Below are positions 34,724-38,495 of a stretch of 64,000 nucleotides of DNA, piece by piece. Positions within the stretch are counted from its first letter, which is position 1; the number at the start of each line of letters is the position of its first letter. Source of the DNA: Shimia sp. CNT1-13L.2. GTDB taxonomy: Bacteria; Pseudomonadota; Alphaproteobacteria; Rhodobacterales; Rhodobacteraceae. The position numbers and the translations under genes are program-made. The DNA lies in the NCBI RefSeq assembly GCF_024331145.1, contig NZ_JANDJO010000001.1:558001-622000 (forward strand), given 5' to 3'. The notes under the pieces are model-generated. The model saw only the letters and a list, made by a program, of their open reading frames with translations. It had not been told where the DNA came from and made no database searches.

Positions 34724-35512
34724 TTATAGATCGAAGGTTGCAAACACCGGCGCGTGGTCGCTCGGCTTTTCCCAGCCCCGCGCATCGCGCAGGATACGAC
34801 TGCCATGGCCCGCGTTGGAAATATCCGGCGTCGCCCAGACGTGATCCAGTCGGCGACCCTTGTCGGCGGCGTCCCAATCCCGCGCACGGTACGACCACCA
34901 GCTGTACAAAAGCCCCTCGGGAATATCCTGCCGGGTGATATCCACCCAGTTTCCCGCCTCCTGCGTTTGGGCAAGATGCTCAACTTCGATCGGCGTGTGG
35001 CTGACAATCTTCAACAGCTTCTTGTGATCCCAGACATCATCCTCGCGCGGGGCAATGTTCAGATCCCCGACAAGGATTGCCTTCTCGGGTGTGTTGGCAT
35101 GAAACCAATCCCGCATCTCGGTCAGGTAATCGAGCTTCTGGCCAAACTTCTCGTTGATCTCACGATCCGGCTTGTCGCCGCCTGCCGGCACATAGAAGTT
35201 GTGCACCGTGACACCATTCTCAAGCCGTCCCGCAATGTGGCGCGCATGACCAAGCGAGGCGAAATCCTCGCTGCCGGCTTCCTCCATCGGGATTTTCGAC
35301 AGGATCGCTACACCGTTATAGCCCTTCTGTCCGCGTGCCACCATGTGGGTGTAACCAAGCGCCTTGAACCCCTCGAGCGGGATCTTGTCGACCGGGCTCT
35401 TGCATTCCTGAAGGCACAACACGTCAGGCGCCTCTTCCTCCATCAGCTTCAGAACGATGGGTTCGCGAAGGCGAACCGAATTGATGTTCCAGGTGGCCAG
35501 GGTAAAGGACAT
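34724..35512 (-). CDS. xthA: Exodeoxyribonuclease III / AP endonuclease
   Basis: A 262-residue EEP-fold nuclease for base-excision repair. Metal and catalytic residues are visible in LCLQECK (Glu), GDLNIAPREDDVWD (Asp/Asn) and the terminal SDHAPVFATF (Asp-His). The start is MSFTLATWN at 35512 with GGGAG upstream; 11 further codons of open frame lack family likeness. It leads the minus-strand group xthA-cnoX-LON-trm112. Confidence 0.95.
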   Translation of the reverse strand: MSFTLATWNINSVRLREPIVLKLMEEEAPDVLCLQECKSPVDKIPLEGFKALGYTHMVARGQKGYNGVAILSKIPMEEAGSEDFASLGHARHIAGRLENGVTVHNFYVPAGGDKPDREINEKFGQKLDYLTEMRDWFHANTPEKAILVGDLNIAPREDDVWDHKKLLKIVSHTPIEVEHLAQTQEAGNWVDITRQDIPEGLLYSWWSYRARDWDAADKGRRLDHVWATPDISNAGHGSRILRDARGWEKPSDHAPVFATFDL

Positions 35513-35703
35513 GCGCGCGCTCCCGTGTCTCGTCTCTCGCGCCACCCTAACCGCGCCCGTCTCCGGTTACCATTGCGAAAACCGCCTGCTTCAATGCACG
35601 CCCAAATACTCCCGCCGGAGGCACCCGCCCCCGCGCCGTAACGGCACCCTCGACTTTTGCGGCGATCCCTCCAAGACTTGCCGAAACCACACCGGAGAGA
35701 GAT

Positions 35704-36333
35704 ATGATTTTCTACGATTGTTCCACCGCCCCCAGCCCCCGACGCGCCCGTATGTTCATCGCCGAGAAAGGGCTGGAGATCGACATCCGCGAGGTCTCCC
35801 TTCTGAAGGGCGAACAGCTCTCTCCCGAGTTCCTTGCCATCAACCCATCGGCCACGGTGCCGGTGCTGGTCACGGATGACGGAACCACGCTTTCGGAAAA
35901 CCTCGGGATCGCCGCCTATCTCGAAGCGGCCTTTCCCGAACCGCCGCTGATGGGCACGACGCCACAGGAAAAGGGCGAAATCCTGATGTGGACGGCGATT
36001 GCCGAGATGCAGGGCGGCCTGCCAGTGGCCGAGGCCCTGCGCAATTCCAACCCGCACATGAAGGGCCGCGCCATTCCCGGCCCCGCGAACTTTGACCAGA
36101 TTCCCGAACTTGCCGAACGGGGCATGACTCGCATCGGCCTGTTCTTCGACAAGATGAACGCGCACCTCGAAGGGCGTGACTTCGTGGCAACCGATCGCTT
36201 CACCCTGGCCGACATCACCGCCTTCGTGCTGATCGATTTTGCCCGCGTCGTGAAGATCAGGGTAAGCGATACCCATCCTCACCTGCTGCGCTGGTACGAG
36301 GCGATCAAGGCCCGCCCGAGCGCCGGCCTGTGA
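35704..36333 (+). CDS. Glutathione S-transferase family protein
   Basis: A 209-residue two-domain GST. The thioredoxin-like N-terminal domain carries FYDCSTAPSPRRARMFIAEKG and the cis-Pro/Glu-Ser-type segment ATVPVLVTDDGTTLSENLGIAAYLE; the C-terminal helical domain contains FTLADITAFVLIDF. GGAGAGAG precedes ATG. Substrate is unknown. The Cys or Ser near residue 6-7 may be catalytic, as in beta- or theta-class enzymes. Confidence 0.88.
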   Translation: MIFYDCSTAPSPRRARMFIAEKGLEIDIREVSLLKGEQLSPEFLAINPSATVPVLVTDDGTTLSENLGIAAYLEAAFPEPPLMGTTPQEKGEILMWTAIAEMQGGLPVAEALRNSNPHMKGRAIPGPANFDQIPELAERGMTRIGLFFDKMNAHLEGRDFVATDRFTLADITAFVLIDFARVVKIRVSDTHPHLLRWYEAIKARPSAGL

Positions 36334-36340
36334 CCCAGAC

Positions 36341-36368
36341 AAAAAAAGGCCCGGAGCAAGTCCGGGCC
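36341..36368 (-). terminator. Rho-independent terminator with seven-U tail
   Basis: On the minus strand GGCCCGGA-CTTGC-TCCGGGCC is followed by TTTTTTT. The perfect 8-bp GC stem and uninterrupted U-run make it the strongest terminator in this region. It ends a minus-strand transcript, about 170 bp beyond the response-regulator stop. Confidence 0.9.
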
Positions 36369-36441
36369 AGTCCAACAGGGAGGTGCATATCAATACCCGG
36401 ATATGCGCGGGTGACTGTGCAACATGGAAATCATGCGGCTG
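36341..36441 (-). ncRNA. Candidate FNR-controlled small RNA of about 100 nt
   Basis: Proposed from four aligned signals on the minus strand. An FNR box at 36476-36489 is centred 41.5 bp before a start at about 36441. TAAACA (36448-36453) lies at the -10 position. A 7-bp stem-loop GCATATC/GATATGC (36385-36406) follows. An unpaired ACCTCCC is next to it, complementary to Shine-Dalgarno sequences, and the RNA ends in a strong terminator (36341-36368). No conserved protein frame is visible; the only small frame, 14 codons, lacks a ribosome site. The alternative is a long 3' UTR of the response-regulator mRNA. Confidence 0.5.
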
Positions 36442-36475
36442 ACAACATGTTTAAAGGTACGGCCAGCATGTTTCT

Positions 36476-36489
36476 TTGATCCATGTCAA
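36476..36489. promoter_or_regulatory. FNR/FnrL-type box
   Basis: TTGATCCATGTCAA matches the TTGAT-N4-ATCAA consensus in nine of ten positions. It lies 50 bp downstream of the response-regulator stop and not before any annotated gene, so its natural target is the minus-strand candidate RNA. Confidence 0.6.
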
Positions 36490-36538
36490 CGAATATGGGC
36501 CACAACTGTTTCCAGAATATTTCCCATCCTTGCACGTA

Positions 36539-37225
36539 TCAGGCGACCAGTCGATAGCCTCCCGACTCGGTGATCAACAGGCGGGCGTTCGACGGATCGG
36601 GCTCGATCTTCTGACGCAGGCGATAGATGTGGGTCTCGAGCGTGTGGGTGGTCACCCCCGCATTGTAGCCCCAGACCTCGTGCAACAGCACGTCCCGCGC
36701 CACCACGCCATCGTTCGAGCGATACAGGAACTTCAGGATATTGGTCTCTTTCTCGGTCAGGCGGATCTTGCGCTCGTCCTCGGTGATCAGCATCTTCATC
36801 GCCGGCTTAAAGGTATATGGACCAAGCTGGAACACCGCGTCTTCCGACTGTTCATGCTGGCGCAGCTGGGCACGGATACGCGCCAGAAGCACCGGGAATT
36901 TGAAGGGCTTGGTGACATAGTCATTGGCACCCGCATCCAGACCAAGGATGGTGTCGGCATCGCTGTCATGGCCGGTCAGCATGATCACCGGGCATTTCAC
37001 ACCCTGCTTGCGCAGCAGGCGGCACAGCTCGCGGCCATCGGTATCCGGCAGACCCACATCAAGGATCATCAGGTCGTAAAGGCCTTCCTTGGCTTTCACC
37101 ATCGCCTCGGCACCGTTGCCGGCTTCGAAGACATCAAAATCCTCGGTCATGATAAGCTGTTCCGACAGCGCCTCGCGCAGATCGTCATCGTCGTCCACCA
37201 GCAGGATTTTCTTGAGCTGAGCCAT
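36539..37225 (-). CDS. OmpR-family response regulator (CenR-like)
   Basis: A 228-residue two-component regulator. The receiver domain has the acidic pocket DDDDD (residues 11-15), phospho-acceptor Asp56 in LMILDVGLP, and the conserved Lys in TKPFKFPVLLARI. A C-terminal winged helix (about 130-226; VWGYNAGVTTHTLETHIYRLRQKIE) follows. The start MAQLKKILLVDDDDD and the sequence resemble CenR, an essential cell-envelope regulator in Caulobacter and Rhodobacter; this is from memory. No sensor kinase is adjacent. GGAGGCCCGC precedes ATG, and an 18-bp dyad (37244-37261) lies upstream. Confidence 0.9.
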   Translation of the reverse strand: MAQLKKILLVDDDDDLREALSEQLIMTEDFDVFEAGNGAEAMVKAKEGLYDLMILDVGLPDTDGRELCRLLRKQGVKCPVIMLTGHDSDADTILGLDAGANDYVTKPFKFPVLLARIRAQLRQHEQSEDAVFQLGPYTFKPAMKMLITEDERKIRLTEKETNILKFLYRSNDGVVARDVLLHEVWGYNAGVTTHTLETHIYRLRQKIEPDPSNARLLITESGGYRLVA

Positions 37226-37403
37226 GCGGGCCTCCCGTTTTCGTGTTCATCTGTACGAACATGTGAGGCGCATCGACGTCAACGGCAAGATTTGCTGCAA
37301 TTCTCTCACGGCCTCGTGTAAATCTCGTGCGATATGTTTCATCTCGTTGCAAAAGCGGCTACATGTTTGGCCTGCATCTGTAACACTGCGCCCCGGTCCC
37401 TCG

Positions 37404-38495
37404 ATGAGTTTCGCTCCCGACATCCTTGAACGCCTCGCCCGCGCCCGCTCTGATCTGCGCATGGGTGTTCCGATTCTTCTGATCAAGGAAGGACAGGCCG
37501 TCCTTGTCCTGTCGGCGGAAACCCTAAAGGCGGACCGTCTGGAAGATGTGCGCGGCCTCGGGCATGAGCTGGTTCTGACGATCACGTCCCGCCGTGCCGA
37601 AACCCTCAAGGCCCGTGCCTACGATGGCGATCTGGCGCGCCTCGCTCTGCCGGCGGATGCCGGTATCAACTGGATCAAGGGCGTCGCCGATCCGCAGGAC
37701 GATCTCAACAAGCCGATGAAGGGCCCGCTGAAATCCCTGCGCGACGGATCGGCCGATCTGCACCGCACGGCGATCAAGCTGGTAAAGTCCGCGCGCCTTC
37801 TGCCCTCGGCGCTGGTGGTCGAGCTCGACAATGCCGCCGCCTTTGCCATGGCAAACGGCCTGACGGTCATTCCCGCCGACCTTGCCGCGCCGCATCTTGA
37901 AACCACCAGCCCTCTGAACTCGGTCGTACATGCACGCCTGCCGATGGAAGCAGCCGAGGCAGGCCGCCTGCATATCTTCCGTCCCGAGGACGGCGGCGAG
38001 GAACACTATGCCATCGAGATCGGCCGCCCCTCGCGGGACGAACCGGTTCTGGCACGGCTGCACTCGGCCTGTTTCACCGGCGATGTCCTTGGCAGCCTGA
38101 AATGTGATTGCGGCCCGCAGCTGAATGGTGCCCTTGCCCAGATGGGCAGCGAGGGCGCAGGCGTTCTGCTCTACCTCAACCAGGAAGGCCGCGGAATCGG
38201 CCTCGCCAACAAGATGCGTGCCTACTCGCTGCAGGATCAGGGCTTTGACACCGTCGAGGCCAATCACCGCCTTGGGTTCGAGGATGACGAGCGCGATTTC
38301 CGCATCGGCTCCAAGATTCTGCGCGAAATGGGGTTCTCATCGGTGCGGCTGCTCACCAACAACCCCCGCAAGATTTCCATGATGGAAAGCACGGGCATCA
38401 CGGTGGCGGAACGTGTCGCCCTGAAAGTCGGGGAAAATGCCCATAACACCGCCTATCTTGCAACCAAGGCGGCCAAGTCGGGGCACCTGCTGTGA
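37404..38495 (+). CDS. ribA: GTP cyclohydrolase II with degenerate N-terminal domain
   Basis: First step of riboflavin synthesis: GTP to 2,5-diamino-6-ribosylamino-pyrimidinone phosphate, formate and pyrophosphate. The zinc ligands Cys223, Cys234 and Cys236 (SACFTGDVLGSLKCDCG) and the NQEGRGIGLANKMRAY block are intact in the C-terminal half. At 363 residues it is much longer than E. coli RibA (196). The N-terminal 170 residues begin like a RibB domain (LERARSDLRMGVPILLI) but lack the acidic DDEDREN-type catalytic loop, so it is unlikely to make dihydroxybutanone phosphate. The L,D-transpeptidase-like gene overlaps its stop by GTGA. Confidence 0.9.
   Translation: MSFAPDILERLARARSDLRMGVPILLIKEGQAVLVLSAETLKADRLEDVRGLGHELVLTITSRRAETLKARAYDGDLARLALPADAGINWIKGVADPQDDLNKPMKGPLKSLRDGSADLHRTAIKLVKSARLLPSALVVELDNAAAFAMANGLTVIPADLAAPHLETTSPLNSVVHARLPMEAAEAGRLHIFRPEDGGEEHYAIEIGRPSRDEPVLARLHSACFTGDVLGSLKCDCGPQLNGALAQMGSEGAGVLLYLNQEGRGIGLANKMRAYSLQDQGFDTVEANHRLGFEDDERDFRIGSKILREMGFSSVRLLTNNPRKISMMESTGITVAERVALKVGENAHNTAYLATKAAKSGHLL

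Follow-up and report, generated by a model that had tools for sequence, protein, structure and literature searches.

Does the gap between a glutathione transferase gene and a response regulator gene of Shimia sp. CNT1-13L.2 encode a regulatory RNA, which RNA is it, and does it possess an oxygen-responsive promoter of its own? An earlier note on the stretch of DNA analysed here (64 kb, hereafter the window) had placed at this spot a small RNA under FNR control that it did not recognise. The genes and frames of the locus are as follows, with coordinates in the window.

35704 to 36333, plus strand: glutathione transferase, convergent neighbour of SorX (Pfam GST_N and GST_C)
36539 to 37225, minus strand: OmpR-type response regulator, in the place of ompR-1 (Pfam Response_reg and Trans_reg_C)
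37259 to 37289, minus strand: conserved CTTG ... CACATGT element before the response regulator (CTTG in 21 of 23 aligned upstream regions)
36342 to 36413, minus strand: SorX small RNA, mature part (Rfam RF02784)
36431 to 36535, minus strand: RNA-strand ORF of 34 aa with a GTG start, touching the predicted transcript and stopping before SorX proper (list of ORFs of at least 30 aa)
35449 to 36393, minus strand: long frame antisense to the glutathione transferase gene (ORF list)

Identity of the small RNA

The proposal of a small regulatory RNA held, and the RNA that had gone unrecognised belongs to a known family: SorX (RF02784) matches positions 36413 to 36342 of the minus strand with 79 bits (cut-off 46.6, model positions 1 to 73 of 73). 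No other Rfam family exceeded its cut-off in the window and FnrS gave no match; with SorX as the sole match over cut-off, an identity with FnrS was rejected. The site is the 3' flank of an OmpR-type response regulator, and the Pfam domains agree with the neighbours named previously. A coding origin was rejected from the ORF list; the 34-aa frame ends ahead of SorX proper. Upstream of the response regulator, the window and 22 other loci share conserved TGAAACA, ACACG-N-CGTGA, and CTTG ... CACATNT motifs.

The RNA is almost certainly SorX, a known stress-response RNA. It could instead be SorY or another family sharing the CUCCCUGUUGGA stretch, as the SorY model (RF02651) does match the SorX site, with 28.8 bits; against this, the SorY cut-off is 111 and the SorX score 79, and this genome has its SorY-like copy at another place (locus L002, 1509-1590; 71.6 bits to SorY, itself under the cut-off). 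Score and neighbourhood already refute this identity, which we rejected and to which we assign a negligible probability. Two further SorX-like copies, of low score (L003 and L005, 33 and 28 bits), have related CTCCCTG stretches ahead of terminators.

A match over the SorX cut-off was present in all 24 same-genus genomes searched. Among 60 relatives covered by the same search, 44 had any match and 33 had one over the cut-off; 140 genomes sampled evenly from the family, each no less than 95% complete, gave SorX at E 1e-9 or better in 114 and over the cut-off in 111. At 51 of 80 named loci, the SorX motif lies at most 330 nt from the regulator stop (52 copies). For the promoter survey below, 118 loci were taken and 112, those with both regulator and pairing motif, were kept, amounting to 117 SorX copies. 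The six dropped loci, inspected by eye, comprise L066, a SorX without adjoining regulator that carries TTGCGTCAGATCAA; L108, whose pairing stretch is altered and in which no box was apparent; and four SorY-like loci (L119, L120, L126, L132). Shimia SorX is an ordinary member of its family, and its FNR-type promoter is well supported and little noticed.

A putative FnrL promoter upstream of SorX

36476 to 36489, no strand assigned: FNR/FnrL-type box TTGATCCATGTCAA, matching 9 of 10 consensus positions, centre 36482.5
36448 to 36453, minus strand: -10 element TAAACA (from the letters; TTTA with TA at -12/-11 is conserved in 37 box-aligned promoters)
36341 to 36441, minus strand: primary transcript of about 100 nt predicted to start from the FNR-type promoter (box centre minus 41.5 to the terminator U run, 36347-36341)

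Both elements were found where the earlier note had read them: the box centre lies exactly 41.5 bp upstream of the predicted start at 36441, and TAAACA occupies 36453 to 36448 on the minus strand. By letter geometry and with a predicted start, a TTGAT-N4-ATCAA-like box (9/10) centred at -41.5 and a -10 element are the features of an FnrL class II promoter. The 14-mer at 36476-36489 is the same as the listed R. sphaeroides FnrL site of uspA RSP0697 (PMC4634722). FnrL is encoded in the Shimia genome (NF045989, 466 bits, cut-off 300), with boxes TTGATCTGGGTCAA and TTGATCTGTGTCAA near its gene. A sigma-70 promoter scan of 35500-37500 found none. The strict pattern TTGAYN4RTCAA occurs once in the 64-kb window against 0.16 expected, and because such a site turns up in 16 of 100 shuffles, the Shimia box is weak evidence by itself. 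The Rfam match of 79 bits and the conservation described below, namely stem covariation and a box at a set place in relatives, lift the Shimia feature above chance. Judging from sequence, we put the probability that Shimia SorX has its own FnrL-type promoter at about 75%.

The box in relatives

Boxes were scored by matches to the 10 TTGATN4ATCAA positions, taking the best box in a stretch of at most 150 nt that ends at CCTCCC and begins no more than 90 nt inside the regulator gene. A score of at least 8/10 was reached in 59 of the 117 copies and at least 9/10 in 44, compared with 7.3% and 0.8% of dinucleotide shuffles of the same stretches; the coding sequence just upstream, sampled in 117 stretches of the same placement, never reached 8. 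In 53 of the 59 boxed copies, the box centre falls 70-81 nt before CCTCCC. The Rfam 5' end of SorX lies about 30 nt before CCTCCC, and a start governed from -41.5 would therefore fall at the RNA 5' end or at most about 10 nt upstream of it. In the Shimia window this distance is 99 nt, and in the R. sphaeroides-like genome G099 it is 102; the promoter-to-SorX spacing in the present species is 27 nt longer than the common form, which counts against the promoter proposed there. When 37 promoters were aligned on the box, excluding genus-mates of the window, an AG after the box and a TTTA emerged, with T in 75% at -12 and A in 81% at -11. These counts, together with an FnrL ChIP-seq site at RSs2461, the earlier name of R. 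sphaeroides SorX, bear out the proposal of a class II FNR/FnrL-type site.

Of the same-genus loci, 19 of 24 carry the box, and L022, L025, L026, L029, and L131 have no 8/10 box. Overall 58 of the 117 copies are without one, and copies with a 3' UTR shorter than about 55 nt have none at the usual place. In the named set, a box scoring 8 or more accompanies 25 of 52 copies and is placed at 70-81 nt in 19 of them; all eight loci named Ruegeria have it, each at 71 nt. Four loci with tandem SorX copies after the regulator (L018, L034, L035, L102) score 6-7 at the first copy, where the box is absent, and 9 at the second, so the box goes with the small RNA, past the terminator of the first copy. At a fifth tandem locus, L068, neither copy has a box. 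On the weakly supported regulator tree, box state changes 23 times versus 37.5 with shuffled labels (0 of 500 as low), a figure to which near copies contribute. This comparison of relatives suggests a low-oxygen switch proper to SorX in about half of those examined.

A pattern search of 248 family genomes with a gap of 30-60, a range that leaves out the usual arrangement, found a closer-set box in nine genomes. Ten loci (L036, L037, L039, L040, L041, L042, L208, L220, L229, L100) have an FNR-type box only about 42-46 nt before CCTCCC; there, a -41.5 start would give an RNA beginning at the pairing stretch without the 5' domain, or the box may simply overlie the regulator stop codon.

FnrL was found in 77 of 80 genomes searched. 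The box is present in 31 of 62 genomes whose FnrL is at least 66% identical to that of Shimia, and in none of 16 with no FnrL or a more distant one (78 genomes of known box state; Fisher p 1e-4, a value that ignores kinship and uses a 66% line drawn after seeing the data).

Structure of the RNA

36385 to 36406, minus strand: 7-bp stem-loop, 36406-36400 with 36391-36385 (7 of 7 pairs covary)
36371 to 36383, minus strand: invariant pairing stretch CCUCCCUGUUGGA (identical in 35 of 35 aligned SorX)
36341 to 36368, minus strand: intrinsic terminator, 8-bp stem (36368-36348) and 7 U (36347-36341) (terminator scan)
36395 to 36412, minus strand: possible pseudoknot helix, tail ACCCG (36412-36408) with loop CGGGU (36399-36395) (complementarity)

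The stem-loop and the terminator with its seven U had been read correctly from the letters, and the covariation analysis that had been proposed for the stem-loop showed changes on both sides at all seven pairs; over 35 sequences, 97.1% of cells are paired. The unpaired ACCUCCC, seen as an anti-Shine-Dalgarno loop, is present and exposed, but the conserved stretch is longer than that, being CCUCCCUGUUGGA. The 35 aligned sequences were drawn from high-scoring matches; the weaker copy L108 differs in the pairing stretch. Terminator-like sites number 2 in 35500-37500 versus 1.6 in shuffles, and the fold z is -2.55 for the 72-nt RNA and -2.61 for the predicted 100-nt transcript. In the best nested fold of the latter, the 7-bp stem gives way to a helix joining the 5' tail to the loop.

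The first loop nucleotides, CGGG, complement the CCCG of the tail, and four Watson-Crick pairs can form in 95 of 113 copies (the script found no stem in 4 of the 117); 1,000 tail-loop re-pairings gave 64 on average and never more than 74. Counting unique tail-loop pairs, 75 of 93 are fully paired versus a re-pairing maximum of 61. The variants CCCG/CGGG (59) and CCCC/GGGG (17) are joined by single GCCG/CGGC, TCCG/CGGA, ACCG/CGGT, and CCCT/AGGG, and such matched variants favour a genuine helix; together with the 7-bp stem it would form an H-type pseudoknot. A kinship-corrected test has just three independent pairs on well-supported branches and for this reason cannot reach significance; a fixed-register count has 81.4% of cells paired, because a 2-nt spacer shifts some copies out of register. 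We consider a pseudoknot at the SorX 5' end probable, the alternative being a mutually exclusive hairpin. The literature searched, outside which the original SorX paper lies, made no mention of SorX with a pseudoknot, and this covarying element is possibly new.

Two proposed routes to SorX and the alternatives

SorX is a textbook 3'-UTR-derived RNA. According to the parts of the literature consulted, R. sphaeroides SorX is cut by RNase E from the 3' UTR of the OmpR-type regulator gene, a release published for that species only, and this route is under RpoHI/RpoHII stress control. The FNR link is not new: FnrL ChIP-seq in R. sphaeroides gave 62 sites, of which two fall in the presumed promoter regions of RSs0019 and RSs2461, where, in the sections consulted, an effect of FnrL on the RNAs could not be established (PMC4263372). 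Low-oxygen control has mostly been left aside in the SorX studies as far as these were covered; our search returned no work following up the FnrL-SorX link, and the papers naming both, in the portions retrieved, tie FnrL to other RNAs.

Genome G099 holds SorX at 2598225-2598299, and because this agrees with the printed R. sphaeroides 5' end of 2,598,224, we take G099 to be R. sphaeroides 2.4.1. Its box TTGCGTGAGATCAA (8/10) overlaps the response-regulator stop codon, with TATAAA at the class II -10 place, and the site listed for hemN, TTGCGCAGGATCAA, resembles it in type; taken alone, the R. sphaeroides box of 8/10 could be a chance match, since 7% of shuffled regions score as high. The printed pre-SorX 5' end, 2,598,182, lies 14 nt upstream of the class II start predicted there, so the printed pre-SorX RNA is not the one predicted from the FNR promoter.

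It is likely, on the reading of the DNA, that SorX receives two inputs, the response-regulator mRNA and its own FnrL class II promoter. By the first, which we infer for Shimia from R. sphaeroides, transcription from the response-regulator promoter would enter the 3' UTR, from which RNase E would cut SorX, the stress route of RpoHI/RpoHII in R. sphaeroides. By the second, low oxygen would allow FnrL to act at 36476-36489 as a class II activator from -41.5, giving an RNA of about 100 nt that starts near 36441, ends at the same terminator, and has a leader of about 28 nt before SorX proper.

Alternatively, SorX may arise solely from the 3' UTR of the response-regulator mRNA, the box being a chance match or functionless. 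The published origin in R. sphaeroides fits this account, as do the half of SorX copies without a box, its absence from the usual place behind short 3' UTRs (under about 55 nt), the strict box that is not rare at one per 64 kb, and the conserved RpoH-like element before the response regulator. Against it stand the box-SorX spacing fixed in 53 of 59, the -10 element aligned across box-bearing promoters, the tandem loci where the box accompanies the second SorX, and the FnrL ChIP-seq site at R. sphaeroides SorX, and we regard it as quite improbable. The earlier note had set an RNA confined to the response-regulator 3' UTR against its proposal; the partly consulted literature does give 3'-UTR processing, but both origins can coexist. 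The box might also serve another CRP/FNR regulator of the Dnr/NnrR type, or repression, in which case nitric oxide or nitrate, and not oxygen, would be the signal for SorX. Five HTH_Crp_2 proteins score over cut-off in the Shimia genome, and sites common to FnrL and Dnr are described in the consulted part of a study of Dinoroseobacter shibae (PMC5398030); the ChIP-seq site at R. sphaeroides SorX belongs to FnrL, however, and a -41.5 box with an aligned -10 is an activating layout, which makes this option rather unlikely.

With FnrL retained as the second input, we tentatively suggest, at somewhat less than even odds, that SorX is at root an anaerobic, FnrL-started RNA with a pseudoknotted 5' end, its first nucleotides being set by the promoter start; RNase E cutting of the response-regulator mRNA would produce this 5' boundary instead, or in addition, in R. 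sphaeroides and other lineages. The pseudoknot is thereby offered as a reason for the fixed 5' end. A conserved low-oxygen-type promoter of its own would give SorX two modes of synthesis and have it in place ahead of the stress for which it was named, and the unexplained FnrL ChIP-seq peak of 2014 becomes a testable promoter. If true, SorX would link oxygen supply to RpoH stress control through a single pairing stretch that turns off genes of uptake and metabolism, non-phototrophs included.

Possible targets in Shimia

By masking ribosome-binding sites of the type CCAACAGGGAG, the exposed CCUCCCUGUUGGA may prevent transporter and metabolic genes from being translated. CAACAGGGAG stands 2-11 nt before the ATG of five genes other than the SorY-like gene (an oligopeptide-type ABC ATPase, a glucose/sorbosone dehydrogenase, a malate-CoA ligase beta, a mandelate-racemase-like enzyme, and a protein without Pfam match at 1e-5), and the reversed pattern at one; blocking of CAACAGGGAG sites is our proposed mode of action. 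Repression of potA is a trait of the SorX family; duplex scoring at PotA-like genes brought out no clear site, the best z being -0.92 in Shimia and -1.47 in G099, with uncertain starts and 2 of 7 loci without a candidate. A search of the Shimia genome for reaction-centre genes found none, so protection from singlet oxygen made by bacteriochlorophyll is an unlikely role here.

Comparison with known systems

The nearest system is SorX of R. sphaeroides (RF02784), which the Shimia RNA resembles in sequence and structure model, place after an OmpR-type regulator, pairing stretch, and terminator. The R. sphaeroides RNA differs in being described, in the literature consulted, as a 3'-UTR product under RpoHI/RpoHII control; its FNR-type box matches 8/10 positions versus 9/10 in Shimia, in whose genome no photosynthetic reaction-centre gene was found. 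FnrS of Escherichia coli is a small RNA under FNR control, as is proposed here for SorX, but the consulted part of PMC4263372 reports no sequence kinship, and FnrS has no Rfam match in the window. SorY (RF02651) has ACCUCCCUGUUGGAC and a terminator in common with SorX, and the sources at hand describe a promoter of its own for it in R. sphaeroides, a further resemblance; it differs in reaching only 28.8 bits at the SorX site and in having a separate SorY-like copy in the Shimia genome. PcrZ of R. sphaeroides is presumably distinct from SorX both as an RNA and in its targets.
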